A stretch of 64,000 nucleotides of DNA from Streptomyces zhihengii (lineage in GTDB: Bacteria > Actinomycetota > Actinomycetes > Streptomycetales > Streptomycetaceae). The stretch is from contig NZ_JAFEJA010000003.1 in the NCBI RefSeq assembly GCF_016919245.1, forward strand, positions 372,001 to 436,000, read 5' to 3'. The translations under genes and the position numbers were made by a program. The notes under the pieces were generated by a model. That model saw only the letters and a list, made by a program, of their open reading frames with translations. It was not told where the DNA came from and ran no database searches. Shown piece after piece: positions 6,288-23,449 of the stretch; positions within the stretch are counted from its first letter, which is position 1; each line of letters opens with the position of its first letter.

Positions 6288-6390
6288 CGGTGAGGCCGAC
6301 ACGGTAGCATGCCCCGTGGTGGCGGTCGATCCGGCCTCCGGGATGTGAGAGATCGCTGCCTCCGACGGCGGACAACGAGATTGCGGAGTG

Positions 6391-7092
6391 ATGGACCGAC
6401 ACGTGCACCTCAAGTCACGGCAACCGGCGCGCCGAGTGCTGCGAGAGGATGTCGCCGACGCCATCCGCAACGGCATCATGGTCGGTGAGCTGCGTCGGGG
6501 TAGTCGCCTTGACGTCACTGGTCTGGCCAATGACCTCGACGTGAGTCAACTCCCCGTCCGTGAGGCTCTCATCTCTCTTGCGGCGGAGGGGCTGGTCCGC
6601 GCAGTGCCTCGCCGCGGGTACTACGTCGAGGAGCTCGCCCCTGTCGACGTCCTCGATCACTACGAGATCTACGGAAAGATCTCGGGCATTGCCGCCGCGC
6701 GCGCGTCGAGGCTGCTGACAGATCAGGACATCGACGAACTGCAGGCACTCAACGACCGCATGCGCACCGTTGAGGACCAGGGCCAGCAGGAAGAACTGAA
6801 CAACGAGATCCACAGCCGGATCAACCGGGCCGGCAGTTCGCGCCGACTGCGGTCGGTGCTCCGTCCCCTGGCGCACGGGATGGACGTGCGTTTCGGCGTG
6901 ATCATCCCCGGGTGGCAGGCCAATGCCGCGGACGAGCACGACGCGATCATCGCTGCGCTTCGGGCGCGGGACACCGAAGCGGTCCGGTCGGCCATGGAGC
7001 ACCACCTCAGCGTCAACGGCCAGCGGGCCGTCGACGCACTCACCCGTGCGGGCTTCTTCGTCACTCATGATGAGGAGGGCGCCGCGCCCTGA
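6391..7092 (+). CDS. GntR-family (FCD type) transcriptional regulator
   Basis: 233 aa from the ATG at 6391; a GTG directly before it (6388) is an equally possible start. Residues about 10-75 form the GntR winged helix (VLREDVADAIRNGIMVGELR, later SQLPVREALISLAAEGLV, then VPRRGYYV). The remainder is an all-helical FCD effector domain with HYEIYGKISGIAAARASRL and a C-terminal DEHDAIIAALRARDTEAVRS helix pair. FCD proteins usually sense small carboxylic acids. It is divergent from the aminotransferase and 14 bases upstream of an aldehyde dehydrogenase, so it probably regulates both and, through the shared palindrome, the oxygenase and gamma-glutamyl ligase operons. Confidence 0.93.
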   Translation: MDRHVHLKSRQPARRVLREDVADAIRNGIMVGELRRGSRLDVTGLANDLDVSQLPVREALISLAAEGLVRAVPRRGYYVEELAPVDVLDHYEIYGKISGIAAARASRLLTDQDIDELQALNDRMRTVEDQGQQEELNNEIHSRINRAGSSRRLRSVLRPLAHGMDVRFGVIIPGWQANAADEHDAIIAALRARDTEAVRSAMEHHLSVNGQRAVDALTRAGFFVTHDEEGAAP

Positions 7093-7106: not shown

Positions 7107-8573
7107 ATGCGCGCGGAACACTGGATCAACGGGAAGGCGACAGCGCCAACCGGATCCCGCTACCTTGCCACCTTCGACCCGATGACGACGCGTCCCTGGG
7201 CTGAGATCGCCCGGGGCGACGCACAGGACGTCGAAGCTGCCGTGCAGGCCGCGAACGACGCCCATCCGGCCTGGCTGGCCCTCGGTCCCTCCCGCCGGGC
7301 AGAGATCCTTTGGCGTATGGGCGATGTCATCGCGGACCACGCCGACGAACTCGCCGCCCTAGAATCACGCGACGCCGGCAAGGTCATCCGTGAGGTCAAG
7401 GGGCAACACCTGAGCATGCGGGCGTGGTTCCACTACTACGCCACGCTGGCACTGCACAACGAGGGCCGCTCGATTCCCCTCGACTCACCCCACATCACGG
7501 CCTATACGACGCGTGAGCCGTTCGGGGTCATCGGAGTCATCCCCGCCTTCAACTCCCCCGTCCTGCTAGGTGCGATGAGCATCGCACCGGGTCTCGCCGC
7601 GGGAAACACCGTGGTGGTCAAGTCCCCCGAGGTCAACGCTCTGTCGCTGAGCCGCGTGGCAGAACTGTCCAAGCAGGCCGGACTCCCCGACGGCTGTCTG
7701 AACGTGGTGCACGGCTACGGAGCCGAAGCCGGGGACGCACTTGTCGTGCACCCGCTCGTACGCAAGATCTTCTTCACCGGCGGGCCGGACTCGGCCAGGA
7801 TCGTCACCGGACGGGCAGCTGAACACCTCAAGCCTGTCGTTACTGAACTCGGCGGCAAGTCCGCCAACATCTTCTTCCCCGACGTACGGGTCGACGACGT
7901 CGCCAACGGTGTGATCGCCGGCATCTTCGCCGCGGCGGGGCAGACGTGTGTCGCGGGCTCCCGCCTGCTGGTTCACCGGAGCATCGCCGATGAACTGGTC
8001 TCGGCGGTCGCCGCGCGGGCACGGCGAATCGTTCTCGGCGACCCGACCGATCCGTCGACCGAGATGGGCCCGATCTCGCAGGAGAAGATCCTCACGGGCG
8101 TACGGGCAGGTGTCACGGCTGCCCTGGACCAAGGCGCGGAACTGGTGGCCGGGGGACCCGACAGCCCGACCCCGGGCGGTGGCTGGTTCTACGCACCGAC
8201 CGTACTGGGCGATGTCACCACCACGATGGACGTGTTCTCGCAGGAACTCTTCGGGCCGGTGCTCGCCGTGACGACCTTCGACACGGAGGAGGAAGCGGTC
8301 GCGATCGCCAACGCCACCGAGTTCGGTCTCGCCGCCGGAATCTGGACCAACGACCTCGGGCGTGCACATCGTGTGGCTCGCCAGATGGTCGCCGGCACCG
8401 CCTGGATCAACACCTACCGGGCCATGAACTTCTCGATGCCGTTCGGCGGTACCAAGGCGTCCGGCTACGGCAGGGTCAACGGCATGGACGGGTTCGCAGA
8501 GTTCACTCAGTCGAAGGCGATCTGGGTCAACACCGATCCCACCCCTGTAGGCGACCCGTTCGTGCTGCGCTAG
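7107..8573 (+). CDS. NAD(P)-dependent aldehyde dehydrogenase
   Basis: 488 aa, complete. The fold signatures are in order: PAFNSPVLLGAMSIAPGLAA (equivalent of the P-W-N-x-P segment), the cofactor-site lysine in NTVVVKSPE, FTGGPDSARIV, the general base Glu in VTELGGKSANIFF, and the catalytic Cys in AAGQTCVAGSRLLVH. C-terminal QELFGPVLAVTTFD and MPFGGTKASGYGR are also standard. It would oxidise an aldehyde made by the aminotransferase, alcohol dehydrogenase or oxygenase nearby. It starts 14 bases after the GntR gene and is probably cotranscribed with it. The substrate cannot be read from sequence; benzaldehyde, semialdehyde and betaine-aldehyde types all have this pattern. Confidence 0.95.
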   Translation: MRAEHWINGKATAPTGSRYLATFDPMTTRPWAEIARGDAQDVEAAVQAANDAHPAWLALGPSRRAEILWRMGDVIADHADELAALESRDAGKVIREVKGQHLSMRAWFHYYATLALHNEGRSIPLDSPHITAYTTREPFGVIGVIPAFNSPVLLGAMSIAPGLAAGNTVVVKSPEVNALSLSRVAELSKQAGLPDGCLNVVHGYGAEAGDALVVHPLVRKIFFTGGPDSARIVTGRAAEHLKPVVTELGGKSANIFFPDVRVDDVANGVIAGIFAAAGQTCVAGSRLLVHRSIADELVSAVAARARRIVLGDPTDPSTEMGPISQEKILTGVRAGVTAALDQGAELVAGGPDSPTPGGGWFYAPTVLGDVTTTMDVFSQELFGPVLAVTTFDTEEEAVAIANATEFGLAAGIWTNDLGRAHRVARQMVAGTAWINTYRAMNFSMPFGGTKASGYGRVNGMDGFAEFTQSKAIWVNTDPTPVGDPFVLR

Positions 8574-8844: not shown

Positions 8845-9822
8845 ATGATGTTCGCCGAGACCGTGCTTCATGAACCCGAACTGGACCTGGTGGTTCGTTC
8901 GGCCCGAGCCGAGTCCGACGGAGTCCGCTCGCTCGAACTCACCCCGGTCAACGACGGCGAGCGGCTCCCGCGCTGGACCCCCGGCGCGCACATCGACGTC
9001 ATGCTGGGCACCGGGCCCAACGCTTTGGTACGGCAGTACTCGCTCTGCGGCGACACCGCGACGGTCGACAGCTGGCAGATCGCGGTTCTGAGGACAACCG
9101 ACTCGCGCGGCGGCTCCCAGTACATCCACGAACGGATCCAGGTGGGAGACGTCGTCAGGGTCCGCGGGCCACGCAATCATTTCGCACTGGCCGGAAGCCC
9201 CCGGTACCTCTTCATCGCGGGCGGGATCGGAATCACCCCGATCCTTCCGATGATCACCGAGGTCGAGGCAGCAGGCGCCGACTGGCACCTGGTCTACGGA
9301 GGCCGCAACCGGGACTCGATGGCCTTCGTCGACCGGCTGGCGGCACACAGCGAGAAGGTCACCCTGGTTCCGCAGGACGAGCGGGGGCCGATCGACCTCG
9401 ATGCGCTCCTGGGCACGCCCGAGCCGGACACCCTGGTCTACTGCTGTGGACCCGCCGGGCTGCTCGATGCCGTCGAAGCCAAGTGCCGCTCCTGGCCCTC
9501 ATCAGCACTGCGCGTGGAACGGTTCGCGCCCGTCGCGACAGACGGCGCGGAGAACCGGGCGTTCACGGTGGTCCTGCAACGATCGGGCCTGACCCTCACC
9601 GTGCCCAGCGACAAGTCCATCTACAGCGTGTGCCGTGAGAACGACGTATCGGTGCTCGCCTCCTGTCTGGAGGGTATCTGCGGGACCTGCGAGACCGAGG
9701 TCCTGGACGGTGAGGTGGAGCACCGTGACGCGATCCTCGACGAGGACGAGCGGGCCAGCAACACCACCATGATGATCTGTGTCTCCCGTTGCCACGGCGA
9801 CAAGCTCACCCTGGACCTGTGA
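8845..9822 (+). CDS. Phthalate-dioxygenase-type ferredoxin reductase (oxygenase reductase component)
   Basis: 325 aa from ATG at 8845 (a GTG at 8842 and ATG at 8848 are alternatives; AAGGGG lies upstream). Domain order is that of VanB/phthalate dioxygenase reductases: a flavin-binding barrel with VRQYSLCG, an NAD-binding domain with YLFIAGGIGITPILPM and LVYCCGPAGLLDAV, and a C-terminal plant-type [2Fe-2S] domain with the C-x4-C-x2-C motif in LASCLEGICGTCETEV plus a distal cysteine in MMICVSRC. It transfers electrons from NAD(P)H to the oxygenase encoded 14 bases downstream. All Fe-S ligands are intact here, in contrast to its partner. Confidence 0.95.
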   Translation: MMFAETVLHEPELDLVVRSARAESDGVRSLELTPVNDGERLPRWTPGAHIDVMLGTGPNALVRQYSLCGDTATVDSWQIAVLRTTDSRGGSQYIHERIQVGDVVRVRGPRNHFALAGSPRYLFIAGGIGITPILPMITEVEAAGADWHLVYGGRNRDSMAFVDRLAAHSEKVTLVPQDERGPIDLDALLGTPEPDTLVYCCGPAGLLDAVEAKCRSWPSSALRVERFAPVATDGAENRAFTVVLQRSGLTLTVPSDKSIYSVCRENDVSVLASCLEGICGTCETEVLDGEVEHRDAILDEDERASNTTMMICVSRCHGDKLTLDL

Positions 9823-9836
9823 CCCGGAGGGCACGA

Positions 9837-10862
9837 ATGAAGTCAAGCAACGGAAGCGTGACCCGTTTCCCGTTCGACGCCTGGTACGCGGTTGCACACT
9901 CGGAGGAGGTCGGCAGGTCACCGGTGGGCCGGATCGCCCACGGGGCAGGCATCGTGCTCTACCGCACGTCGGGGGGCGGCGTCGTCGCGCTCGCCGACCG
10001 GTGTGCGCACCGGCCGTACCCCCTCAGCCTCGGCAGAGTCGAGGGCGACCTGATCGTCTCCTCCTACTCCGGCTTCGCCTACGGCCCCGACGGGCGCGTT
10101 GTCTCGGTGCCGACGCAGCAGCAGGTGCCTGTCGGCGCCGCCGTACGCGCCTACCCGTCCGTGGAGTACGCCGGCCTGCTGTGGGTCTGGACCGGCAATC
10201 CAGGTCTCGCGGAGCGGCGCCCGCTCACGGCCCTGCCGTGGCTGACCGAGCCGGGCTGGACGACTTTTGGCGCCGACTGGGAGACCGCTGCTTCCGGCGG
10301 CCTGCTCCAGGACAATTTCGCTGACATCACGCACGTGCCCCATCTGCACCCGGTGCTCTCGCCGCCGGTGCTGCGGCGCACACCGCCCAGGCTCCATGTC
10401 GAGGTGAGCGAGCAACAAGTGCGCTTCTGGCGTGACTTCCCCGCTGCACACTTGCAGACCTGGCAGAGCGAAGCCACCGGCCTGTCCGCCGAGGCCGAGT
10501 TCGAACAACATGAGGAGGGCCTTTTCGCCAGCCCCGGCCTGTGGACGGACCGCTGGGACGTGCTGACCTCTCACGGCCCCAAGACCATGCACTTCACGCA
10601 TGCGATCACGCCCGTCGACGACCGTCGTACACAACACTTCTGGACGGTCAGCCGCAATTTCGCTTTGGACCGCGAAACCACCGGCATTCTGCGGCCGCTG
10701 CTCGAGGGCTACTACCGCACAGTCAAGGAAGCTCTCGAAGTGATGCAGACGCTCATCGACCGCGAAGGCCCTGCCAAAGAGGTAAGTGTGCGCGCCGATG
10801 CCGCCATGCTGGAGGTGCGACGGGTCATGCGCCGGCTCCTCAAGGAAGACACGACGCGATGA
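9837..10862 (+). CDS. Rieske-type oxygenase large subunit with altered Rieske site
   Basis: 341 aa from ATG 9837 behind GGAGGG. It is laid out like vanillate demethylase oxygenase subunits: N-terminal Rieske domain, then a catalytic domain. The first Rieske ligand pair is present (C56, H58 in DRCAHRPYPLSLGRVEGD). The second pair, normally C-x2-H in a CPYHGW-like turn, reads SSYSGF: both the Cys and the His are Ser (S75, S78; bases 10059-10070). The mononuclear iron site is kept (D163, H166, H171 in FADITHVPHLHP). The reductase is immediately upstream and an aldehyde dehydrogenase overlaps its stop, so it is in a three-gene operon. Whether it still binds a cluster is uncertain; as written, it should not form a normal Rieske centre. 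Confidence 0.88.
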   Translation: MKSSNGSVTRFPFDAWYAVAHSEEVGRSPVGRIAHGAGIVLYRTSGGGVVALADRCAHRPYPLSLGRVEGDLIVSSYSGFAYGPDGRVVSVPTQQQVPVGAAVRAYPSVEYAGLLWVWTGNPGLAERRPLTALPWLTEPGWTTFGADWETAASGGLLQDNFADITHVPHLHPVLSPPVLRRTPPRLHVEVSEQQVRFWRDFPAAHLQTWQSEATGLSAEAEFEQHEEGLFASPGLWTDRWDVLTSHGPKTMHFTHAITPVDDRRTQHFWTVSRNFALDRETTGILRPLLEGYYRTVKEALEVMQTLIDREGPAKEVSVRADAAMLEVRRVMRRLLKEDTTR

Positions 10863-12232
10863 GCGACTACAGAATCGTCAATCCCGCGACCGGCGAGAGC
10901 GAGGCGCCGCATCCGCAGGCGAGCGCCGAGGACATCGAGTCCGCTCTCGCCTCGGCAACGGACGCATTCCACGCCTGGCGCCGCACCTCGATCGCCGAAC
11001 GCCAGGATTTGCTGCGCCGGTTGGCGTACCTGCACGAGGAGCGGGCGCCGGAGCTGGCAGCTGTCATGGCCAGAGAGATGGGCAAGCCAGTGCGTTCCGG
11101 CCGCGGCGAGATCGGTCTGTGTGCCGAGATCTTCCGCTATTACGCGGATCACGCAGAGGAGTTCCTTGCAGACGAGGTCCTCCCGCAGCAGGACGGCTCC
11201 ACGGCCCTTCTCCGCACGGCTCCGCTAGGGCCCCTTCTGGGCATCATGCCGTGGAACTACCCCTACTATCAGGTGGCCCGTTTTGCGGCGCCGAACCTGC
11301 TCCTCGGCAACGTCATCCTCCTCAAGCACGCCCCTCAGTGCCCCGAGTCGGCACTGAGGATGGCGGCCATGTTCGCCGACGCGGGCCTGTTGTCCGGCGG
11401 CTACACCAACCTGTTTGTGGACAATGACCAGGCCGCGAGGATCATTGCTGATCCTCGCGTTCAGGGGGTGTCGCTGACCGGATCGGAGCGCGCCGGCGCC
11501 AGCGTCGCCGAGGTGGCGGGACGCCATGTGAAAAAGGTCGTGCTCGAGCTCGGGGGATCGGACCCCTTCATCGTCTTGGACACCGACGACCTCGAAGGCC
11601 TGGTGGCCGAGGCGATTGTGGGCCGTATGGGCAACTGCGGGCAGGCATGCAACGCAGCCAAGCGGTTTGTGGTCCTCGCCGAGGTCTACGACGCGTTCGT
11701 GGAGCGGTTCGCGGAGGGCGTGGCGGCGATCCGGGTGGGCGATCCGCTGGACGAGGGCACCACGATGGGGCCATTGTCCTCTTTTGCCGCGCGGGACGAG
11801 GTTGCCGCGCAGGTGGATGATGCCCTGGCGAAGGGAGCGGTGGCGATGGCGGGGGGCGGCATCGTCCCCGGGCCCGGAGCATACTTCCAGCCGACTGTGC
11901 TGACCGGAGTTGGGCCGGGTATGCGCGCTTGGGGCGAGGAGATCTTCGGTCCTGTTGCTGTGGTTCACAAGGTGGCCGATACAGCCGAAGCGATCCGGGT
12001 CGCCAATGACTCCCCCTACGGTCTGTCGGCGTCCGTGCACACGACCGATCCGGATAGAGCTCTGGAGCTGGTGGATCTCCTTGACGCCGGAATGGTGTAC
12101 ATCAATGAGTCGCCGTCGACGGCAGCTGACCTGCCCTTCGGTGGTGTCAAGCGCAGTGGCTACGGCCGTGAGCTGGGCCGTCTGGGCATCCTTGAGTTCG
12201 CCAACCGCAAGCTGATCAAGCTACGCAAGTAG
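10859..12232 (+). CDS. Aldehyde dehydrogenase, succinate-semialdehyde dehydrogenase type
   Basis: 457 aa; its ATG overlaps the oxygenase stop codon (ATGA), so the two are translationally coupled. Signatures: GIMPWNYPYYQVARFAAPNL, the cofactor lysine in VILLKHAPQCP, VSLTGSERAG, the base Glu in VLELGGSDPFIVL, and the catalytic Cys in GNCGQACNAAKRF. The length (about 455) and the N-terminal YRIVNPATGES start fit the GabD1/succinate-semialdehyde branch. It probably oxidises the semialdehyde from the class III aminotransferase or an aldehyde released by oxidative dealkylation. It is the last gene of the reductase-oxygenase operon. Confidence 0.93.
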   Translation: MSDYRIVNPATGESEAPHPQASAEDIESALASATDAFHAWRRTSIAERQDLLRRLAYLHEERAPELAAVMAREMGKPVRSGRGEIGLCAEIFRYYADHAEEFLADEVLPQQDGSTALLRTAPLGPLLGIMPWNYPYYQVARFAAPNLLLGNVILLKHAPQCPESALRMAAMFADAGLLSGGYTNLFVDNDQAARIIADPRVQGVSLTGSERAGASVAEVAGRHVKKVVLELGGSDPFIVLDTDDLEGLVAEAIVGRMGNCGQACNAAKRFVVLAEVYDAFVERFAEGVAAIRVGDPLDEGTTMGPLSSFAARDEVAAQVDDALAKGAVAMAGGGIVPGPGAYFQPTVLTGVGPGMRAWGEEIFGPVAVVHKVADTAEAIRVANDSPYGLSASVHTTDPDRALELVDLLDAGMVYINESPSTAADLPFGGVKRSGYGRELGRLGILEFANRKLIKLRK

Positions 12233-12455
12233 CCGAACCTGTGTGAAGTCCAGGGGTGTTTCGTGGGACCCACCCCCGGGCCGTGTAAGCCTGGGGCGGG
12301 GGAGACCCCGCGGCAGCCCACTGTTCTCCTGCGGTTGGGTCTCGAAGAGGCGAGCGTGCGGTCCGGGGGTTCCTCAAGGGGCTATAGGGCCTGTCCGATG
12401 GGTCAACAAGAGGGATGCCCATCCAGGCCGCCATGAGCGCTTTAATGCCCAGGTG

Positions 12456-13178
12456 GTGAACTGGACACAGATGCACGACTGCTACGGGGACGTCGATCGA
12501 GTCCCCGCGCTTCTGGAACAGGTGGAGCTGAAGGACGACGCCGAAGCATGGAAGGAGCTGGGATACCGGCTAGTCCTCGAACACGACCTCGTCTTCCCCG
12601 CCAGCTTTGCCGCCTTGCCGCGCCTGATGTGTCTTGCCTCCAGGAGCGCACGGGCGCGTGGACTGGCTGGAACGATCCTGCGGCGCGCGGCAGGACACCA
12701 TGGCTGCGATGATCTGCTGGGGGACTGCGCCGACGAGATCCCCGGGTTCCGTGAGTTGCTGGACCGGTACCTGCAATCGCGGCCGGTCGACTACCTCCCG
12801 GCCTTCCTCGATTCGCTCGCGGCCATGGAGGAGTACCACTGGAGTGCCGCCCTGGGGGACTTCACGGACGACTTCTACCACCTGGAGTGCCCCCACTGCG
12901 CCGTGGAAGTGACGATCGCCATCGGGGACCACGGGCGCTATTCAGCGATCCGGGACTGGAACCTGGGCGATGTGGACCGCCGTGACCTATGGCCGGCGCC
13001 CTCCGAGGCGCTCTTTGGGACCGGCCGGTGGATGTACGAGACTGCCGTCCGTGACGGGCGAGAGGCACTCGCTGACGGAATCGCCTACCTCTTCGGCAAG
13101 GCTGAATGCCCACGCTGTGCCAGCGTGTTCGACATCGCGGACGAGTACACATCCGCCAACCGACCCGTCCTGCGGTAG
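12456..13178 (+). CDS. Passenger gene: uncharacterised protein with two CxxC pairs
   Basis: About 240 aa from a GTG at 12456 (GTG 12453 and ATG 12471 are alternatives; no strong ribosome site decides). I recognise no function. The first 130 residues look like helical repeats (RVPALLEQVELKDDAEAWKE, SRSARARGLAGTILRRAA, PAFLDSLAAMEEYHWSAAL), as in HEAT-like scaffolds. Two Cys pairs, CPHC and CPRC about 95 residues apart, could form a zinc ribbon. It lies wholly inside the terminal repeats of the IS element and convergent with the transposase, 33 bases apart, so it probably moves with it. Codon use is typical for the region. Confidence 0.7.
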   Translation: MNWTQMHDCYGDVDRVPALLEQVELKDDAEAWKELGYRLVLEHDLVFPASFAALPRLMCLASRSARARGLAGTILRRAAGHHGCDDLLGDCADEIPGFRELLDRYLQSRPVDYLPAFLDSLAAMEEYHWSAALGDFTDDFYHLECPHCAVEVTIAIGDHGRYSAIRDWNLGDVDRRDLWPAPSEALFGTGRWMYETAVRDGREALADGIAYLFGKAECPRCASVFDIADEYTSANRPVLR

Positions 13179-13211
13179 GCCAGGGTGGGTCGGAAGCAGG
13201 CGAGAAGGAGC

Positions 13212-14093
13212 TCAGGAGCGGAGCCAGAGCCGGATCGCGGTGACGGTTACCGTGCCGTGGAAGACGTAAGCCCGTTTGTCGAATCGAGTGGCCACGGCAC
13301 GGAAGCCCTTGAGGGCGTTGATCGTGCGCTCGACCTCGTTCCTGCGGGTATACCAGGCCCGGTCGAAGCCGGTGGGCCGCCCGCCCCTGCTACCGCGGGT
13401 TTGCCGGTGGGCCTGCTGGTCGCGGCGCTCGGGGATGGTGTGCCAGATCTGTCTGCGTCGCAGATAGCGGCGGTTGAGGCGGGAGCTGTGCCTTGTCGCC
13501 GCTGAGATGCTCCGGCCGAGTGCGAGGACGCTCGCCGGCCCAGCGCGGCACGCGGACGCGCTCCAGTACCGGGATCATCTGCGGTCCATCGCCTGCCTGC
13601 CCCGGTGTGATCAGCACGGCCAGCGGACGCCGTCCGCCTTCACCTACCAAATGGATCTTCGTGGTCAGTCCTCCTCGGGAACGGCCCAGCCCTTCGTCGT
13701 CCCGATGATGAGCGGGCCGACTTCGCCTGCCGGGGACGCGTGGAGGCTGCTTGCGTGCACCGGCCGCATGCTGATGTGCCCGGCAGACCGTCGAGTCCAC
13801 CCCCGCCATCGTCCAGTCGAGACGGCCCTCGCTATCGGCATCGGCTTGGACGGCCTGCAGGATCTTGTCCCAGGTACCGTCCGCCGACCACCTGCGGTGC
13901 CTGTCATGCACCGTCTTCCACTTGCCGAATCGCATGGGCAGGTCCCGCCATGGGATGCCGGTCCGTTGCCGGAAGAGAATGCCGTTGATCACCACCCGGT
14001 GGCTCTTCCACCGCCCGCCTCGGCCTGCGCTCTTCGGCAGGTGTGCGGTTCCAGCCGGGCCCACTCCGCATCTGTCAGATCACCCCGCCTCAC
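13212..14093 (-). pseudogene. IS5-family transposase, broken by two frameshifts
   Basis: Reading from a GTG at 14093 gives VRRGDLTDAEWARLEPH, then two extra bases near 14050 shift the frame into LPKSAGRGGRWKSHRVVING. The middle part is intact, with the insertion-domain/DDE features WTMAGVDSTVCRAHQHAAGA and GGLTTKIHLVGEGGRRPLAV. A second shift near 13485 (two bases missing at GGCACAGCTCC) leads to SRLNRRYLRRRQIWHTIPER and finally NEVERTINALKGFRAVATRF with the third catalytic acid region, ending IRLWLRS. Three reading frames are needed for the whole protein, so it is probably inactive unless the changes are sequencing errors. It belongs to the element bounded at 12387 and 14147. Confidence 0.85.
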
Positions 14094-14382: not shown

Positions 14383-15888
14383 TCAGCTCACGAACTCCCT
14401 CAGCATCTCGTCGCTGGGGCGCCGTTTGGCAGTGATAGTGCTGTAGAGCATGGCGGCGACGAACACGATCAGCGGGGACAGCGCGAGTGCCCAGCCGGTG
14501 GCCGACATATGCCATGCCGCCAGGCTGGTGCCGGCCGTGCCGCTGATGAGTCCGAACCGGCTCAGCAGCAGGTAGAGGATCCAGATCATGGCGACCAGGC
14601 TCAGGGCGGGGGCGATGAGCACGTTCCACGTCCGGGAGTCTTCGCCGGTCCGCCTGAAGTAGACGATGACGGCGATGCTCACAATGGCCTGTACGAAGGT
14701 GAGCGCCACGATCGCGGTGATCGCGAACCAGTAGAAGAGGTTGATGACCGGGTCCAGCCCGAGCAGGGCGAAGGCCGCGATCACGAGGACGGCCACCGCT
14801 GTCTGGAGGAACGATGCGTTGGCCGGGACTCCGCGGCCGTTGGCCCGGCCGAAGGCCTGCGGCAGCAGCTGGGCGCGTCCCATCGCGAAGAAGTAGCGTG
14901 TGGCGGAGTTGTGGAAGGCGAGGACGCATGCGAAGGCGCTGCTGATCAGCAGCCACTTCATCAGTTCGGGCAGCCATGAGCCGACGTATACGTCAGCTAT
15001 GTGGAAGAGCACCTGCGAGGGGTCGGCGAGGGGGACGTTGTCGACCGTGGTCAGCCGCAGAGTCTCGTCGGCCACGTGGGCGTGCCCGATTCCGCTCACC
15101 ATGCCGAACGACACGACCGCGAAGAGTCCCGTGATGATGCCGACGGCGAGGTAGGTGGCTCGTGGAACGGTGCGTCTGGGGTTCCGTGACTCTTCGCCGT
15201 AGATGGCGGTTGCCTCGAAGCCGATGAAGCCGGCGAACGCGAAGGCGAAGGCGATGCCGGGTGCGCCGTTCATGATCGCCGATGGACTGAACGATGCGCC
15301 CATGTCGATGCCGTCGGGGCCGCCGCCTCGGGCGAAGACCGCGATTGCGGTGAGCACCATGGAGCCGACTTCGAGGACCAGGAGGAGCCCGAGGAGCTTG
15401 GCTCCGAATTCGACGTGTAGGAGGCCGAGTACCTGGACAAGGGCTACCGCGATCAGGGACCACGCCCACCATGGCACGGACGAGGGGAACGTCCCGGCGA
15501 GGATGGCGCCCAGGTAGCCGTACACGGCGGTCTGTACAAGGCAGTAGGACATCACGGTGACGAAGGCGGACGACACGCCCCATCGGATGCCCAGGCCTCG
15601 TCCGATGTAGGCGAAGAAGGCGCCAGTGTGCACCACGTGATTGCTCATAGCGGCGTATCCGACGGAGAACAGGGCGAATATCAGGCCGGCGACGAGGAAT
15701 GTCCCTGGGGCGGCGGCGCCGTTGCCGATCACGAGGATGCTGGGTACCAGCCCCGTCATGCCCGCGATCGGCGCGGCGGCTGCGATGACGAAGAAGCAGA
15801 TTCCGAAGACCCCGATGGCATTCTTGGTGAGCGAGGAGCCGGACGACTTCGCGGGTTCCGCTGTTGCGTCGGCCTGTGACTGGCTCAT
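14383..15888 (-). CDS. APC-superfamily amino acid/amine permease
   Basis: 501 aa from ATG 15888 with GGGAGGAA upstream. The N-terminus (KNAIGVFGICFFVIAAAAPI) and about twelve hydrophobic segments are those of the amino acid-polyamine-organocation superfamily; GFIGFEATAIYGEESRNPRR after the fifth or sixth segment is a conserved APC loop. It is an inner-membrane importer. It is in the same direction as the alcohol dehydrogenase upstream (start of the latter 16924), separated by 67 bases, and would be cotranscribed with it. Its place in the cluster makes it the probable uptake system for the amine or amino acid substrate. Confidence 0.92.
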   Translation of the reverse strand: MSQSQADATAEPAKSSGSSLTKNAIGVFGICFFVIAAAAPIAGMTGLVPSILVIGNGAAAPGTFLVAGLIFALFSVGYAAMSNHVVHTGAFFAYIGRGLGIRWGVSSAFVTVMSYCLVQTAVYGYLGAILAGTFPSSVPWWAWSLIAVALVQVLGLLHVEFGAKLLGLLLVLEVGSMVLTAIAVFARGGGPDGIDMGASFSPSAIMNGAPGIAFAFAFAGFIGFEATAIYGEESRNPRRTVPRATYLAVGIITGLFAVVSFGMVSGIGHAHVADETLRLTTVDNVPLADPSQVLFHIADVYVGSWLPELMKWLLISSAFACVLAFHNSATRYFFAMGRAQLLPQAFGRANGRGVPANASFLQTAVAVLVIAAFALLGLDPVINLFYWFAITAIVALTFVQAIVSIAVIVYFRRTGEDSRTWNVLIAPALSLVAMIWILYLLLSRFGLISGTAGTSLAAWHMSATGWALALSPLIVFVAAMLYSTITAKRRPSDEMLREFVS

Positions 15889-15955
15889 GGGTTCCTCCCA
15901 GGGGAGATGGTGAGGTGGCGCGATTCCCGGAGTACCGGGCCGGGCGCGCACGTCG

Positions 15956-16924
15956 TCACGCGATGGTGAGGACGATGCGGCCCCGTGACTGACCGGAGCG
16001 CAGCAACTCGTGCGCCCGGTTCGCCTGGTCGAGCGGAAGGTGCTCGACTACGTGACGCAGCGGCTCGCGCTGTGCCAGGTCGAGCAGGGCCCGCAAGTCA
16101 GCGGGACTTCCCCAGATACTTGTCGTCAGCCAGGCTTCACTGGGCAGACGGCCGAGGCCGAAAGGGACGGCTCCTCCGAACAGGCCCACCAGCACGACGA
16201 CTCCTCCACGCCGTACGGCCATCACGGCGGATTGCAGCGTCGATTCGGCGCCGACGAAGTCGATCACGGAGTCGTACGGTTCCCCGCCGATGTCGTCCGG
16301 AGCCAGCGTTACGTCGGCTCCCAGCTCCCGCGCGACGGCGAGCCTGGCCGGCAGGGGATCGGTCACGGTCACGTGTGCGCCTGTGCTCCGGGTGAGGAAC
16401 TGAACGGCGTACTGTCCGAGGCCCCCCGCGCCGATCACGAGTGCCCGTGCCCGGCGGCCGGACTCCCACCGGGAGGTGGCTCGCCGCACGGCGCGGAAGG
16501 CGGTCAGCCCGCCGCACGCCAGAGGTGCGACTTGGAGGGGGTCGAGGCCTTCTATCGGGATCAGGTAGTCCCGCTGCGGCACGAGCATCTTCTCGGCGTA
16601 GCCGCCGTTGTCAAGGACTCCCGCTTCATGACTGTCCGGACAGGTCATCTCTTTGCCCGATGAGCACTCCCGACATTCGGGACGGCGACAGCCCCATGGA
16701 GCATAGACCATGACCGGTCCGATCCGGTTGTCTACGCCCACCACTTCGTGACCCAAGATGATCGGCGTCCGACCGATGTGCCCATCAGCTACGTGGAGGT
16801 CTGAATGGCAGACCCCGCACCCGAGGACATCGATCACGGCCTCGTTGGGGGAGGTGGCCACCGGGTCGGCCACCTCGCACTCGACAAGTCGTTCCCCCGG
16901 ACCTGTAAGGAGCATTGTCCGCAT
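15956..16924 (-). CDS. Zinc-dependent alcohol dehydrogenase (MDR superfamily)
   Basis: 322 aa from ATG 16924; a TTG at 16954 would add ten residues. Catalytic zinc ligands are seen in LGCGVCHSDLHVADGHIG and ILGHEVVGVD, and a four-Cys structural zinc lobe in CRRPECRECSSGKEMTCPD. The NAD(P) fold follows with ALVIGAGGLGQYAVQF. It interconverts an alcohol and aldehyde, feeding or draining the aldehyde dehydrogenases. It heads the minus-strand pair with the permease and is divergent from the gamma-glutamyl ligase; a GATA-N3-TATC palindrome lies in the shared 86-base gap. Confidence 0.93.
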   Translation of the reverse strand: MRTMLLTGPGERLVECEVADPVATSPNEAVIDVLGCGVCHSDLHVADGHIGRTPIILGHEVVGVDNRIGPVMVYAPWGCRRPECRECSSGKEMTCPDSHEAGVLDNGGYAEKMLVPQRDYLIPIEGLDPLQVAPLACGGLTAFRAVRRATSRWESGRRARALVIGAGGLGQYAVQFLTRSTGAHVTVTDPLPARLAVARELGADVTLAPDDIGGEPYDSVIDFVGAESTLQSAVMAVRRGGVVVLVGLFGGAVPFGLGRLPSEAWLTTSIWGSPADLRALLDLAQREPLRHVVEHLPLDQANRAHELLRSGQSRGRIVLTIA

Positions 16925-16987
16925 AGGGAGGCCTCTCTCGTTGACCCTTGCCAATCACCCATTCCGGACACTATATAACTGATAGAC

Positions 16988-16998: not shown

Positions 16999-17010
16999 TA
17001 GGAGGTGGCG

Positions 17011-18348
17011 ATGGCAGTCGAGCCGGCTCGAACCCTCGACGAATGCGCGAAGATCGCCGAAGCCGCAGGGGTCCACACCGTTGCCTGCGTGTTCAGCGAC
17101 ACCTGGGGCGTCGCGCGCGGGAAGCACCTGCCGATCCGCCAGTTCCTCCGAGACGGACGGTTCAGCACCGCCGCCGTCGCGTTGTCGTGGAACCCGCGCT
17201 CCGACGTCCAGCCCACGCCCTGGGCGGAGATGGACAGCGAGTTCAAGGACATGGCGGTCGTACCCGACCTCGACACCTTCCGAGTCGCCGGCTGGACCGA
17301 AGGGACAGCGGTCGTCATCTGCGACACGGTGGACCCACAGACCGGTGAGCCGACCGCCATGGACGCACGCGCGATGCTCAAACGGACGCTCCGCGATTAC
17401 GCCGACCTCGGCCTGACCGTCCATCAGGCACCGGAGCTGGAATTCCATCTCTTCGACACCGCCTGGCAGCCGATCTCCACTAAGACGTGGTGCTACTCCA
17501 TCGACCGCGCCGACGAACTCGAACCAGTACTCGGAGCCATCCGCGAAGCCATGCTGAGGACCGGCATCGACTGCGAGGCGAGCAACGTGGAGTACGGTCC
17601 GTCACAGGTCGAGATCAACCTCCGCTACGCCACGGGGATGACCGCCATCGACGAGACCATCCTGTTTCGTCTCCTCACCCGCGTCATCGCGCGCAGGCAC
17701 GGCTACAACGCAACCTTCATGGTCAAGCCGATCAACAGCGGTGCCGGCTCGGGCATGCACATCCATCAGAGCCTGGTCGACGCGGACGGGCGCAACATCT
17801 TCGCCGAGCACGACGACCCGGGGCACGCACTGCGGTCCACAGCCATGAAGGGCTACGTCGCCGGACTGCTGCGCCGCCAACTGGAACTCCAAGCGCTGGC
17901 CATGCCCACAGTCACCGCCTACCGACGGGCGGAGGACTACTCGTTCTCCCCGACCCAGGTCTGCTGGGGACTCGACAACAGACTCGTCGGAGTGCGCTGT
18001 CTGACCCCCAACGCCTCCGGAACCCGCGTCGAGGTCCGGTGGGCCGCCGCGGACGCCAACCCCTACCTCCTCGCGCACGGCTATCTCCAGGCCGGACTCG
18101 AAGGAATGCGCGATGATGCCGTCCTGCAGCCGGTGTCGACCGGCGACCCCCACGCAGACACCACTCTCGCCCGGGTCGCGCCAAGCCTCGACAAGGCTGT
18201 CGAGGCGTTCCACGGCAGTGCGTTCGCCCGTCGCATCTACGGCGACATGTTCGTGGACACGTTCACGGTCATGCAGCGCAACGAACTCGCCGCTTTCGGC
18301 GCACACGTCACCGACTGGGAGTTCAAGCGCTATGCCGATGTCTTCTGA
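17011..18348 (+). CDS. Glutamine synthetase-like gamma-glutamyl-amine ligase
   Basis: 445 aa from ATG 17011 with GGAGG six bases upstream; the GTG at 17005 overlaps that site and is unlikely. It has the glutamine synthetase catalytic core: ELEFHLFD (metal ligands), NVEYGPSQVEINLRYATG, NATFMVKPINSGAGSGMHIHQSL (ATP/metal loop), and AYRRAEDYSFSP with ERRxxD-like region in place of the true GS arginine cluster. The N-terminal part (VACVFSDTWGVARGKHLPIR) is that of PuuA/GlnA3/GlnA4-type enzymes that join glutamate to an amine rather than ammonia. It is followed, with overlapping stop/start, by two glutamine-amidotransferase-fold genes, the arrangement of the aniline (atdA1/A2, tdnQ/T) and putrescine pathways. 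Confidence 0.88.
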   Translation: MAVEPARTLDECAKIAEAAGVHTVACVFSDTWGVARGKHLPIRQFLRDGRFSTAAVALSWNPRSDVQPTPWAEMDSEFKDMAVVPDLDTFRVAGWTEGTAVVICDTVDPQTGEPTAMDARAMLKRTLRDYADLGLTVHQAPELEFHLFDTAWQPISTKTWCYSIDRADELEPVLGAIREAMLRTGIDCEASNVEYGPSQVEINLRYATGMTAIDETILFRLLTRVIARRHGYNATFMVKPINSGAGSGMHIHQSLVDADGRNIFAEHDDPGHALRSTAMKGYVAGLLRRQLELQALAMPTVTAYRRAEDYSFSPTQVCWGLDNRLVGVRCLTPNASGTRVEVRWAAADANPYLLAHGYLQAGLEGMRDDAVLQPVSTGDPHADTTLARVAPSLDKAVEAFHGSAFARRIYGDMFVDTFTVMQRNELAAFGAHVTDWEFKRYADVF

Positions 18349-19072
18349 GAGCGGCGAGCCGGTAGGACCAGCCGACCAGCGCAGGAGCGCAGTCCTGGTC
18401 ACGCACGAGGCCTACGGCGCCGACGACACCGGCGCGATCCGACGGTACCTTGTGGACCGCGGCTTCAGCGTTGCCCATCACTCCGTCTTCCCGCACGGAG
18501 AGATCCGCGACCCGGACCTGGCACTGCCCGACACGGCGGCAGCCGACCTGGTCGTCGTCTTCGGCTCCTTCGCGCACGCGTGGCAGCAGGAACACCAAGA
18601 CTGGGTCGAGGCGGAGATCAGCTGGGTCCGACGCGTGGTGGAGTCGGACATTGCCTATGTCGGCGTCTGCTTCGGCGGCCAACTCCTGACCCGCGCCTGG
18701 GGCGGTCGCGTGGAGCCCGGCAACGGCCACGAGATCGGGATGCTGACCTTCCAGACAACTCCGGACTGCCCGATCCCAGGCGGCCCCTGGTTCTCCTGGC
18801 ACAGCGACCGCGTGGTACTTCCGCCCGACGTCACCGTGTGGTCCCGCAGCGACTTCGGGCCCCAGATCTTCACCCGCGGCCGCTCGATCGGTGTCCAGTT
18901 CCATCCGGAGATCACCCACGCGTTGGTCGACTCGTGGATCCGGGCCGAGCAGGCCACGGTGGACAAGGCCTACGGGTCGGAACGACTGCGCGCGGAGGTG
19001 GACGCCGACATCGGGGCCTCGCAGACAAACCTCGGCACGTTCCTGAACTGGGTGATCGAAGCGTGGGTATGA
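18332..19072 (+). CDS. Class I glutamine amidotransferase-fold hydrolase (gamma-glutamylamide type)
   Basis: About 246 aa; start ATG 18332 or 18338, both inside the end of the ligase gene. The GATase1 triad is visible: nucleophile Cys in YVGVCFGGQLLTRAWGG, and the His-x-Glu pair in SIGVQFHPEITHA. The domain resembles GMP-synthase-type amidotransferases of 230-250 aa, including AtdA2/TdnT of aniline degradation, which hydrolyse gamma-glutamylanilide. Here it would act on the product of the upstream ligase, or release ammonia from glutamine. Its stop overlaps the next start (ATGA at 19069), so ligase, this gene and the next form one coupled unit. Confidence 0.82.
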   Translation: MPMSSESGEPVGPADQRRSAVLVTHEAYGADDTGAIRRYLVDRGFSVAHHSVFPHGEIRDPDLALPDTAAADLVVVFGSFAHAWQQEHQDWVEAEISWVRRVVESDIAYVGVCFGGQLLTRAWGGRVEPGNGHEIGMLTFQTTPDCPIPGGPWFSWHSDRVVLPPDVTVWSRSDFGPQIFTRGRSIGVQFHPEITHALVDSWIRAEQATVDKAYGSERLRAEVDADIGASQTNLGTFLNWVIEAWV

Positions 19073-19809
19073 GGACGAGACCCCTTATCGCCATACCGGG
19101 ACGGTTCAGCCGGTCGGCCTCCGCCCTGCGATTCCGGGCCGTGGTCAACGCGCAGGCCCTGCTGGAGGCGGTATGGACAGCGGGCGGCGACCCCGTCACC
19201 CTGCTTCCCACCGACGCGACCACGCCCGCGGAGATCACGGCGAGGCTCGACGGCTATCACGGAGTGCTCCTTCCTGGCGGCGCTGACATCAACCCGGCCC
19301 TCTACGGGGCCGCCCCCGCTCCCGGTACCGACCCGCCCGACGACCTACAGGACGACTTCGACCTGGCCGTACTCCGCCACGCGCTGGACCACGCGATGCC
19401 ACTGCTCACCGTCTGCAGAGGGACGCAGCTCCTCAACGCCTTCCTCGGCGGCACCTTGGAACAGGACATGGCCGCAGGGCACATCCACACGGTACAGACG
19501 GTCACTCCGGTCGAGCCGACCCTCTTCGGACCCGACCCCATCCCCGTCAGCTGCTACCACCATCAGCGCATCGACATCCTGGCAGAGGTGTTGGAACCGT
19601 TCGCCCGCGCGGACGACGGGACCGTCGAGGCAGTGCGGTACCGCACCGCCCCGGGCTGGGTCTTCGGCGTGCAGTGGCATCCCGAGGACACGGCCGCCGA
19701 GGACCCCCACCAGCAGCTCCTCCTCGCCACCTTTGTGGAAGCAGCACGGACATCGCTTCCGAGTAACCCCGTTGAAGGAGCGCCATGCACCCCGACGACA
19801 TCGACCTGA
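19069..19809 (+). CDS. PuuD-like gamma-glutamyl-GABA hydrolase (peptidase C26)
   Basis: 246 aa; ATG 19069 overlaps the stop of the upstream amidotransferase. It is the C26 class: RPLIAIPGRFSR at the start, GVLLPGGADINPALYG (the G-G-x-D-I-x-P loop), nucleophile Cys in LLTVCRGTQLLNAFLGGTL, VSCYHHQRID, and catalytic His/Glu in VFGVQWHPEDTA. PuuD proteins cleave gamma-glutamyl amides such as gamma-glutamyl-GABA, returning glutamate. With the ligase upstream this closes a glutamylation cycle: attach, oxidise, release. Its last 25 bases overlap the P450 start, indicating cotranslation. Confidence 0.9.
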   Translation: MRTRPLIAIPGRFSRSASALRFRAVVNAQALLEAVWTAGGDPVTLLPTDATTPAEITARLDGYHGVLLPGGADINPALYGAAPAPGTDPPDDLQDDFDLAVLRHALDHAMPLLTVCRGTQLLNAFLGGTLEQDMAAGHIHTVQTVTPVEPTLFGPDPIPVSCYHHQRIDILAEVLEPFARADDGTVEAVRYRTAPGWVFGVQWHPEDTAAEDPHQQLLLATFVEAARTSLPSNPVEGAPCTPTTST

Positions 19810-21053
19810 CCGACCTCGACCTCTACCAGGACGGAATCCCCCACGAGGCGTTCCGCACCCTGCGCGACCAGGCCCCTCTGTTCTGGAACGACGAGACCGA
19901 CGGCAACAAAGGCTTCTGGTCCGTCACCCGGTACGAAGACGTCGCGGCGGTCGACAGAGACGCTGAGACGTACTCCTCAGAACAACAGGTCACACTCGAG
20001 GAGCTCGACGAGGAGCAGCTCCTCGTCCGCAGGTCCCTGATCGACACCGACGGAGCCCGGCACTGGGCGCTGCGCAAGGTGCTGGCTCGAGAGTTCAGTC
20101 CTCGTTCGGTGGCTCTGTACAGCGACTTCCTCACAAAGCTGACCGAAGCGACCCTCGACCGCGCTCTCGCGCTCGGCGAATTCGACTTCGTCGAGCAGAT
20201 CAGTGCCGACATTCCGATCCGCCTGCTGGCGCGCATGCTCGACGTGCCGATCGAGGACACTGACAAGCTGATCGACTGGGGCAACCAGATGATCGCGAAT
20301 TCCGATCCCGACTACACGGACGTCCTCGCCGGCAGTCCCGAGTCGGAGCAGTACCGCAACCTCCCCTTCCGCTCCCCGGCTGCTCTTGAGGTCTTCGAGT
20401 ACGGTTTCAGACTCGCCGCGCACCGCAGGGGTGGCGCGGGGACCGACCTGGTGTCCAAGCTGGTCAACACCATCCCCGAGGACGGTGTCCCGCTCACCGA
20501 TCTGGACTACCAGAACTACTTCTCCCTTCTGATCATCGCCGGCAACGAGACCACCCGGCACACCATCTCGCACACGGTTCGAGCGCTCGCCTCGCATCCG
20601 CAGGCCTGGGCCGACCTGAAGAAGGATCCGTCCCTGGTGCAGAACGCGGTCGAGGAGTTCCTTCGCTGGGCCAGTCCGATCCTCCACTTCCGCCGCACCG
20701 CGACCCGTGACATCGAGCTCCACGAGCAGCAGATCCGCGAGGGTGACAAGGTCGTGATGTGGTTCGGGTCGGCCAACTACGACGACCGAAAATTTCAGAA
20801 CCCCGAAGTCTTCGATGTCCATCGCAAGAACGTCGAGCATGTGTCGTTCGGCAAAGGCAGCCCGCACTTCTGCCTCGGTAACGCGCTGGCGCGGCTGGAG
20901 ATCAGGATCGTCATCACCGCGCTACTCGAGCGGCTGGAGAGCATCGAGCTGCTGAGCGAGCCGCGGATGGTGCGTTCGAACCTTGTGCACGGCATCAAGC
21001 AGATGCCGGTGCGGGTGCACCCTGCTCCGTCCTACCGAGGCACTGCCGGCTGA
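19785..21053 (+). CDS. Cytochrome P450
   Basis: 422 aa, starting inside the PuuD-like gene. All P450 signatures are present: I-helix oxygen-activation motif AGNETTR near residue 255, the K-helix E-x-x-R in EEFLRWASPI near 290, and the heme-thiolate loop FGKGSPHFCLGNALAR near 355. The overall style resembles the CYP124/125/142 group (long N-terminal loop, FRRTATRDIEL), soluble and dependent on separate redox partners. No ferredoxin gene adjoins it, although the reductase at 8845 carries its own [2Fe-2S] domain. Coupling to the ligase operon suggests it oxidises the gamma-glutamylated amine or a later intermediate. Confidence 0.95.
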   Translation: MHPDDIDLTDLDLYQDGIPHEAFRTLRDQAPLFWNDETDGNKGFWSVTRYEDVAAVDRDAETYSSEQQVTLEELDEEQLLVRRSLIDTDGARHWALRKVLAREFSPRSVALYSDFLTKLTEATLDRALALGEFDFVEQISADIPIRLLARMLDVPIEDTDKLIDWGNQMIANSDPDYTDVLAGSPESEQYRNLPFRSPAALEVFEYGFRLAAHRRGGAGTDLVSKLVNTIPEDGVPLTDLDYQNYFSLLIIAGNETTRHTISHTVRALASHPQAWADLKKDPSLVQNAVEEFLRWASPILHFRRTATRDIELHEQQIREGDKVVMWFGSANYDDRKFQNPEVFDVHRKNVEHVSFGKGSPHFCLGNALARLEIRIVITALLERLESIELLSEPRMVRSNLVHGIKQMPVRVHPAPSYRGTAG

Positions 21054-22027: not shown

Positions 22028-23449
22028 ATGAACCCCGAGGACATTCCTTGGACGCCGGCGGTGGAACTGGCGGCGAAGATCAAGGCTCGTGAAGTCTCCG
22101 CGGCTGAGGTGGCGGAGGTCATCGTCGAGCGAGTCGGGAGTCTGAACCCTGAGCTCAACGCCTTCATCAGTTTTGATCCCGAGCAGGTGCTCGCCGATGC
22201 CAAGGACTGCGACCGGAAGACGGTCGCGGGCGAAGAAGTCGGGCCGCTTCACGGGGTTCCCTACTCCATCAAGGAACTCACCTCGATGAAGGGCCAGCCC
22301 CTCGCGTTCGGGCTCAAGCCGCTCGCTGGCGGGATCGGCCAGCGCGACGCTGCCGTCGTGACACGGATGCGAGATGCCGGCGGAGTGTTCCTGGGGAAGA
22401 CCAACACTCCGGAGAGCGGCTACTGGGGTGGAACGGAAGGCCACCTCTACGGAGCGACCCACAACCCCTGGAAGCGGGACTACAGCGCTGGCGGGTCGAG
22501 CGGTGGCGCCGCAGCCGCTGTCGCCGCGGGTCTGGGCCCTCTGGCGGAGGGCAGCGACGGTGCAGGATCGGTTCGCATCCCGTCCTCGCTGTGCGGCGTG
22601 GTCGGGCTCAAGCCGTCGATGGGCCGGATCCCCCAGACGATTCTCGCAGGCCGGTACTACACCTGGGCCTACCACGGGCCGATCACGAGGACCGTCGCTG
22701 ACAGCGCGCTGATGATGAGCGTGGTGTCAGGCCCTCACCGCGAAGACCCCATGACACTGCCTGACGACGGCACCGACTACCTTGCCGAGACGCAGAGGGA
22801 CATCTCCGGCTGGCGGATCGCCTACTCACCAGACCTCGGCTTGAGTACACAGGTTGACCCAGAGGTAGCAGCCATCTGTGCCGACGCCGTGACGGCGTTC
22901 ACGGACCTCGGTGCTGTCGTCGAGGAGGCCACACCCGGCTGGGGCGACCCCGAATGGGCGATGTGGCATGGTGTCTGGGTGCCCGGATTCGCATCCGAGC
23001 ACGACTTGCTGGACTGGGAAAGCCTGCACGGTGAAGTCGACGACGACCTGATCGGCCTGATGCAGGAAGCCGAGCAGCTGACCGGCGTGCAGAAGGGGAA
23101 CGCAGACGCCTTCCGCGGCGGGATGTGGGACACCTACACAACCTTCATGGAGCGATACGACCTCCTGGTTTCCCCCACCCTCGGGGAAGCATCCTTCCCG
23201 CACGGTCAGTTCTGTCCGGACTGGCTGCAGGGTGAATCCCTTCAGCGGCGCCTGCTCGGCTGGCTGCTGACATACCCCTACAACATGCTGACAACGCCAG
23301 CAATCACCGTCCCTGCTGGCGTCACCTCTGATGGCCGCCCGGTCGGGCTGCAGATCGCCGGTGGCCTGCATGCCGACGGGGCCGTACTCCGGGCAGCCGC
23401 TAACTTTGAATCGGCCCGTCCCTGGGCCGACCGCCGGCCGAGCCTCTAA
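22028..23449 (+). CDS. Amidase (amidase signature family)
   Basis: 473 aa from ATG 22028 behind GAGGAGCAGG. The Ser-cisSer-Lys triad is present: catalytic Lys in [11 protein letters not shown], cis-Ser in [20 protein letters not shown] and the nucleophile Ser in [19 protein letters not shown]. It hydrolyses a carboxamide. The C-terminal [20 protein letters not shown] is also typical. The frame is open upstream to 21818 but without a ribosome site. It follows the P450 after a gap of 974 bases and a strong terminator comes directly after it, so it may have its own promoter. It may cleave an amide formed in, or feeding, the amine pathway. Confidence 0.94.

Follow-up and report, generated by a model that had tools for sequence, protein, structure and literature searches.

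A Rieske-oxygenase-fold protein without Rieske ligands encoded near reductase and cytochrome P450 genes in Streptomyces zhihengii

Gene locus

A stretch of 64,000 nucleotides from Streptomyces zhihengii (NCBI RefSeq assembly GCF_016919245.1, contig NZ_JAFEJA010000003.1, positions 372,001 to 436,000 of the forward strand), referred to as the window, was analysed for the gene OXY and its surroundings. OXY encodes a protein with the fold of a Rieske oxygenase in which ligands of both the Rieske cluster and the mononuclear iron are replaced. It follows the gene of a VanB-type reductase (RED) and lies in one cluster with genes for a glutamine-synthetase-like enzyme (GS), amidotransferase-type hydrolases and a cytochrome P450 (P450). 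The coordinates of all features are collated in Table 1.

Loss of the Rieske-cluster ligands

The reading frame of OXY contains no internal stop codon, and its product is matched by the Pfam families PF00355 (Rieske, 50.4 bits) and PF19112 (VanA_C, 81 bits). The predicted fold is that of dicamba monooxygenase, with a Rieske domain and a helix-grip catalytic domain, and the listed VIA and Foldseek matches are exclusively ordinary Rieske oxygenases. The original prediction, made from the DNA alone, held that serine had taken the place of the Cys and the His of the second ligand pair without a frameshift or deletion; both serine codons were confirmed, and the alignment around the site is smooth. 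C56, in the surviving half of the motif, is the sole cysteine of the whole protein. The window protein cannot hold a Rieske cluster because it has one cysteine only, and a [2Fe-2S] cluster of any kind was ruled out on the same ground.

A search for homologues, proposed together with the prediction, was carried out with the OXY protein (E≤1e-20). The best 120 of 400 relatives were combined with 18 loci from named contigs and with the window to give a window-type set of 139 rows (136 distinct sequences). The complete Cys-x-His..Cys-x2-His set occurs in 0/136 of these and in 26/26 canonical outgroup proteins; the loss is therefore old and common to all members rather than peculiar to one gene. 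The four cluster positions read DHSS in 52 sequences, CHST in 32, CHSS in 21, CHAT in 13, CHCS in 9 and CNDT in 4, the remaining five being spread over four further patterns, none of them CHCH. Loss of the same kind is found on the 18 named contigs, which belong to separate assemblies, with one strain contributing two of them; as judged from this recurrence the serine substitutions lie beyond chance or sequencing error.

In the tree, the window-type sequences group in a single clade of 63 rows (support 100/100), beside oxygenases from the same genus that have the canonical CHCH set. The ratio of nonsynonymous to synonymous substitution rates (dN/dS) of OXY was 0.10–0.32 in seven pairs, which indicates purifying selection. 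A plasmid search with OXY returned nothing above 38% identity among the 15 matches listed of 295 records.

Mononuclear iron site and invariant residues

The original prediction also described the non-heme iron ligands as intact. This applies to the bridging Asp (D163) and to both His (H166, H171) of the window protein, but the third ligand is gone. Asp occupies the corresponding column in 25/26 canonical rows, the other one having a gap there; among the 136 window-type sequences the residue is Val in 134 and Met in two, so that in OXY two His are kept and the third member of the 2-His-1-carboxylate triad is aligned with Val296. This assignment rests on the alignment of the 136 distinct window-type and the 26 canonical rows; a quick alignment that included the subclade described below shifted the third-ligand column in distant canonical rows and was not used. 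As far as alignment can tell, OXY thus lacks two attributes that define a Rieske oxygenase, the cluster ligands and the iron triad.

D163 and H166 are each invariant (136/136). Position 171 (window H171, 10347–10349) is Asp in 124 sequences, His in 11 including the window, and Ala in one; His at this column is scattered over the tree of the window-type family. Newly invariant residues include R199, E226, H255 and the pair Tyr292-Tyr293 (136/136 each), the latter lying one helical turn ahead of the lost Asp column.

Sister subclade with three cysteines and one histidine

Two members of the family, on L137 and L139, emerged from loci centred on the P450. A search with their proteins yielded 437 relatives, of which the best 120 were listed; all 120 carry C-x-H..C-x2-C (three Cys, one His; Cys3His1) at the cluster site. 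Their H166 column is Gln or Lys (120/120), position 171 is Ala in 111, and Tyr-Tyr is retained in 120/120; by sequence they have no mononuclear iron site. The structure of one member is predicted with confidence, at a predicted local distance difference test score (pLDDT) of 91.6. When this subclade is included in the tree, the whole family is one clade (58 rows, 100/100), with 100/100 for the Cys3His1 group and 88/89 for the window-type fork. A Rieske site with a Cys3His1 set and without catalytic iron would have the look of an electron carrier rather than of an oxygenase. The unusual cluster that had been considered for the window protein is accordingly a live possibility for the sister subclade, which has the ligands by sequence, and is excluded for the single-cysteine window protein.

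Reductase and gene neighbourhood

RED carries Fer2, NAD-binding and FAD-binding domains, all above the Pfam cut-offs, and no other family at E≤0.001. The motif C-x4-C-x2-C..C is present in 18/19 RED rows, the nineteenth being interrupted by a contig end; the earlier view of a normal reductase partner is borne out. RED lies immediately upstream of OXY on the same strand in 28/28 family loci, and in the four canonical sister loci examined the order is OXY, then RED. The reductase tree, which has long branches and a bootstrap correlation of 0.981, is provisional.

Table 1. Features of the OXY cluster in the window, and members of the sister subclade.
Feature	Position	Strand	Remarks
GntR/FCD-family regulator	6388..7092	+	
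Aldehyde dehydrogenase (HpaE/BADH-like)	7107..8573	+	upstream of RED, same direction
RED, VanB-type reductase	8848..9822	+	FAD, NAD, C-terminal [2Fe-2S]; OXY starts 14 bases downstream
OXY, Rieske-oxygenase-fold protein	9837..10862	+	341 aa; without Rieske ligands and third iron ligand
C56, H58	10002..10010	+	surviving half of Rieske motif; TGT 10002–10004, CAC 10008–10010
S75-S-Y-S78	10059..10070	+	Ser in place of second-pair Cys and His; TCC 10059–10061, TCC 10068–10070
D163, H166, H171	10323..10349	+	bridging Asp and two His of mononuclear site, present in window protein
Y292-Y293-x-x-V296	10710..10724	+	third-iron-ligand column (canonical Asp) is Val
Aldehyde dehydrogenase (succinic-semialdehyde-type)	10859..12232	+	ATG overlaps OXY stop codon (ATGA)
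Amino-acid/amine permease	14383..15951	−	
Alcohol dehydrogenase	15956..16954	−	
GS, glutamine-synthetase-like	17005..18348	+	gamma-glutamyl-amide-synthetase type, below NCBIfam cut-offs
Class-I glutamine amidotransferase-like hydrolase	18338..19072	+	
Peptidase C26	19069..19809	+	PuuD-like gamma-glutamyl hydrolase
Cytochrome P450 (P450-A)	19785..21053	+	proposed to be the actual oxygenase; heme loop FGKGSPHFCLG, AGNETT in I-helix
First Cys3His1 members	L139:11511–12563; L137:7264–8277		further members P0121–P0240

Among the 28 family loci, the P450 is in view in 24 and GS in 22. Four loci (L019, L023, L175 and L179) show no P450: the P450 of the L175 genome sits on a different contig (L134), L023 and L179 end nearby, and L019 extends only 3.5 kb on one side. 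Further cluster genes encode a permease, an aldehyde dehydrogenase, and PuuD-like and glutamine amidotransferase hydrolases; many loci from outside Streptomyces add a LigB/HpaD-like dioxygenase, an FAA hydrolase and a protein of the acetoacetate decarboxylase family. The canonical sister oxygenases do not accompany P450-A, since only two of eight genus members having such an oxygenase also have P450-A.

The interval between the downstream aldehyde dehydrogenase and the permease (12243–14064) holds an open reading frame without Pfam match (12243–13178) and a transposase frame of IS4/5 type (13390–14064, minus strand). The loci L009 and L010 keep the gene order of the window with a far smaller gap at this place. 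Downstream of the P450, an amidase is encoded at 22028–23449, with weak counterparts (31–33%) near the clusters in L014, L017, L026 and L175.

P450 and its electron supply

The heme-loop pattern was found in 16/17 P450s (window included; no match in L024) and AGNETT in 17/17. Compared with the textbook pattern, the heme loop of the window P450 carries an extra residue between Gly and His, as do the loops of its relatives.

P450 loci were surveyed by fetching 40 of 81 distinct listed places, the window's own place being excluded. Ferredoxin together with ferredoxin reductase was found in 31, RED with OXY in three, RED alone in one, neither system in five and both in none (Fisher p 0.0014). No window-type locus in view (0/21) carries a separate ferredoxin reductase. 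The gene families that mark the ferredoxin-type clusters are ferredoxin, ferredoxin reductase and a regulator named TetR-type from annotation, and no others; an additional P450 occurs in 7/30. A related HpaD-type cluster on a Streptomyces canus plasmid (L061, NZ_CP107732.1 48999–74243) has ferredoxin, an FAD-dependent ferredoxin reductase and a second P450, with no RED or OXY. The genome G307 (L132, G307:C11:50300–70200) has the P450 and RED and no OXY (best match 9e-8); its RED is placed within the window-type REDs (support 93/77) on a long branch (0.97). In G520, the P450 is fused to a reductase of the RED type. The genome that harbours the OXY-RED-P450 locus L122 also has, roughly 15 kb away from it, a 737-residue open frame (L164:2067–4277, minus strand) in which a P450 is fused to a VanB-type reductase.

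Proposed role of OXY

Ligand loss, predicted fold, conservation, purifying selection and gene linkage can be read from the sequences; comparative genomics suggests three further points, namely that electrons may flow from RED to the P450, that OXY may act as a helper, and that the substrate may be an amine. On balance we favour, with modest confidence, the reading that OXY is a Rieske-oxygenase-derived subunit that has given up catalysis and serves a reductase–P450 system. OXY would descend from a two-component oxygenase of the VanA/DdmC type, with the fold and the old reductase RED retained. The permease would import an amine, which GS would convert into its gamma-glutamyl amide; RED (FAD and [2Fe-2S]) would feed electrons to the neighbouring P450, and this enzyme would oxidise the gamma-glutamylated amine. 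OXY docked to RED could aid the transfer by docking, stabilising or gating. The dehydrogenases would then process the product of the P450, and the amidotransferase-type hydrolases would strip off the glutamate. The wider evolutionary proposal is more tentative: a Rieske oxygenase lineage may have been captured by a P450 and have lost its iron site, one subclade becoming a Cys3His1 [2Fe-2S] electron carrier and that of the window shedding the cluster as well and becoming a docking subunit, free of cofactors, through which the reductase of an oxygenase can supply a P450. P450, RED and OXY are consecutive genes on one strand in 6/6 Cys3His1 loci with the P450 in view. Of the functions offered in the original prediction, non-oxidative action fits best; the protein would work otherwise than as a Rieske oxygenase.

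Several observations weigh against the favoured reading. H166 (136/136) and Asp or His at 171 (135/136) are still conserved, as though a metal or structural site persisted. The P450 is on the opposite strand in 13/18 window-type loci with the P450 in view. G307 suggests that OXY is dispensable. RED resembles the P450 fusion (43%) less than it does the reductases of canonical sister oxygenases (51–56%, with 37% for the most distant). A strict exchange of ferredoxin and its reductase for RED and OXY is weakened because a ferredoxin reductase accompanies RED and OXY in 4/7 Cys3His1 loci, G646 and G614 among them. When these two, which are among the 81 listed places and in which both systems are present, are added to the survey (42 loci, two with both), Fisher p becomes 0.013, and related genomes among the P450 loci make either p value a guide only. 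The five loci with neither system show that the partners may lie elsewhere; in L125 and L147 the stretch or the contig is short.

Alternative explanations

The strongest alternative, to which we assign a minor share of the probability, is that OXY is an enzyme in its own right with a remodelled metal site (H166, Asp/His171 and perhaps Tyr292/293 or D163), receiving electrons from RED or none and catalysing another step of the pathway. The conservation of H166, of Asp/His171 and of the Tyr pair, the invariance of H255, R199 and E226, and the constant adjacency of RED would all suit such an enzyme. It is opposed by the third-ligand column, which holds no carboxylate in 136/136, and by the Cys3His1 subclade, in which H166 is Gln or Lys in 120/120 in the same P450 and RED context. 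No catalytic gene, moreover, has been added to the ferredoxin-type clusters in parallel with the lack of OXY (7/30 have one more P450), and G307 has no OXY.

It is rather improbable that OXY is a substrate-handling subunit without a part in electron transfer, its old pocket accommodating either the gamma-glutamyl amide or the product of the P450. Residues on the pocket side are invariant, and in the phmmer alignment H255 falls on H251 of DdmC, which we take to be a binder of the dicamba carboxylate; OXY is, however, linked foremost to RED (28/28) and not to GS (22/28).

The proposal of the original prediction, by which OXY would be an active oxygenase with mononuclear iron and no Rieske centre that receives electrons directly from the [2Fe-2S] domain of the reductase, appears distinctly unlikely. 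The window protein does keep H-x4-H, its reductase is normal and adjacent, and the methylxanthine N7-demethylase NdmC offers a precedent, being an oxygenase that has no Rieske cluster of its own (PMC4408171; this and the other papers cited by PMC number were available as excerpts, and statements on them hold for those excerpts). The third ligand is, however, gone in 136/136 (Val296 in the window protein), and Asp replaces the second His in 124/136, so the direct route to an intact iron site is not supported. According to the excerpt, the Rieske cluster of NdmC is supplied by its reductase NdmD (PMC4408171), whereas RED has only FAD, NAD and Fer2 domains. Supply of a Rieske cluster in trans in the manner of NdmC was ruled out, since no Rieske family is matched in RED. 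The pattern C-x-H..C-x2-H, sought as a regular expression in the window and the 18 loci, matched seven strings resembling ferredoxin or Rieske motifs, none accepted as a gene on inspection by eye; most fall within short reading frames or run antisense to a known gene.

A decaying pseudogene, frameshift or sequencing error, which the loss of four cofactor ligands might bring to mind, can be set aside given the residues conserved in 136 distinct sequences from many independent contigs and the low dN/dS.

Significance and comparison with known systems

If OXY serves the P450, one oxygenase system would have been captured by another, with the former catalytic subunit retained as a scaffold, and two natural stages (a Cys3His1 cluster without iron site, and no cluster) would be at hand for probing the part of the scaffold in electron transfer. 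The cluster may also be the source of a natural partner system for P450s that has a single reductase. Should the capture proposal hold, the third component of this P450 redox system would derive from a rival oxygenase. Database names of OXY relatives are subunits of ring-hydroxylating dioxygenases or vanillate demethylases, and these names are very likely wrong for the OXY family. Among the open-access papers listed for Rieske oxygenases without Rieske ligands or for oxygenases with Cys3His1 sets, none was recognised as an account of the OXY family.

With enzymes of the VanA/DdmC type (the dicamba monooxygenase DdmC; the guaiacol demethylase 7qwt), OXY shares the Rieske-oxygenase fold, the bridging Asp and an adjoining flavin/[2Fe-2S] reductase (28/28); it differs from them in lacking the Cys2His2 set and the third iron ligand and in its linkage to a P450. 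Among oxygenases that lack a Rieske cluster of their own, the closest precedent is, within the literature excerpts, NdmC, a non-heme iron enzyme whose Rieske cluster is carried by the reductase NdmD (PMC4408171). Both are oxygenase relatives without a cluster of their own in a multi-protein system, but OXY keeps the fold of the Rieske domain and loses its ligands together with the iron triad, and RED has no Rieske domain. The NEET proteins, with a Cys3His1 [2Fe-2S] cluster (PMC8463382), resemble the sister subclade in the ligand set; the fold is unrelated, and the window OXY has no such set.

The gamma-glutamylation pathways for aniline and 1-naphthylamine (AtdA, NpaA) likewise place a GS-like enzyme, a glutamine amidotransferase-like hydrolase and a reductase around an oxygenase, and the first steps proposed for the window cluster are similar; oxidation is there performed by a true Rieske dioxygenase, whereas the window cluster has a P450 beside a cofactor-less Rieske relative (PMC11335346). 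For the P450 side, the reductase GcoB, which serves the P450 GcoA, has an architecture in common with BenC (PMC6021390), and CYP116 P450s use a reductase of the phthalate dioxygenase type, CYP116B being self-sufficient (PMC7260179). In GcoA/GcoB and CYP116B, a single reductase chain (flavin, NAD, [2Fe-2S]) of a type shared with the reductases of Rieske oxygenases serves a P450, as would be the case for RED; the difference lies in the helper protein of oxygenase fold, which the excerpts describe for neither system (PMC6021390, PMC7260179) and which the OXY loci carry beside the reductase.
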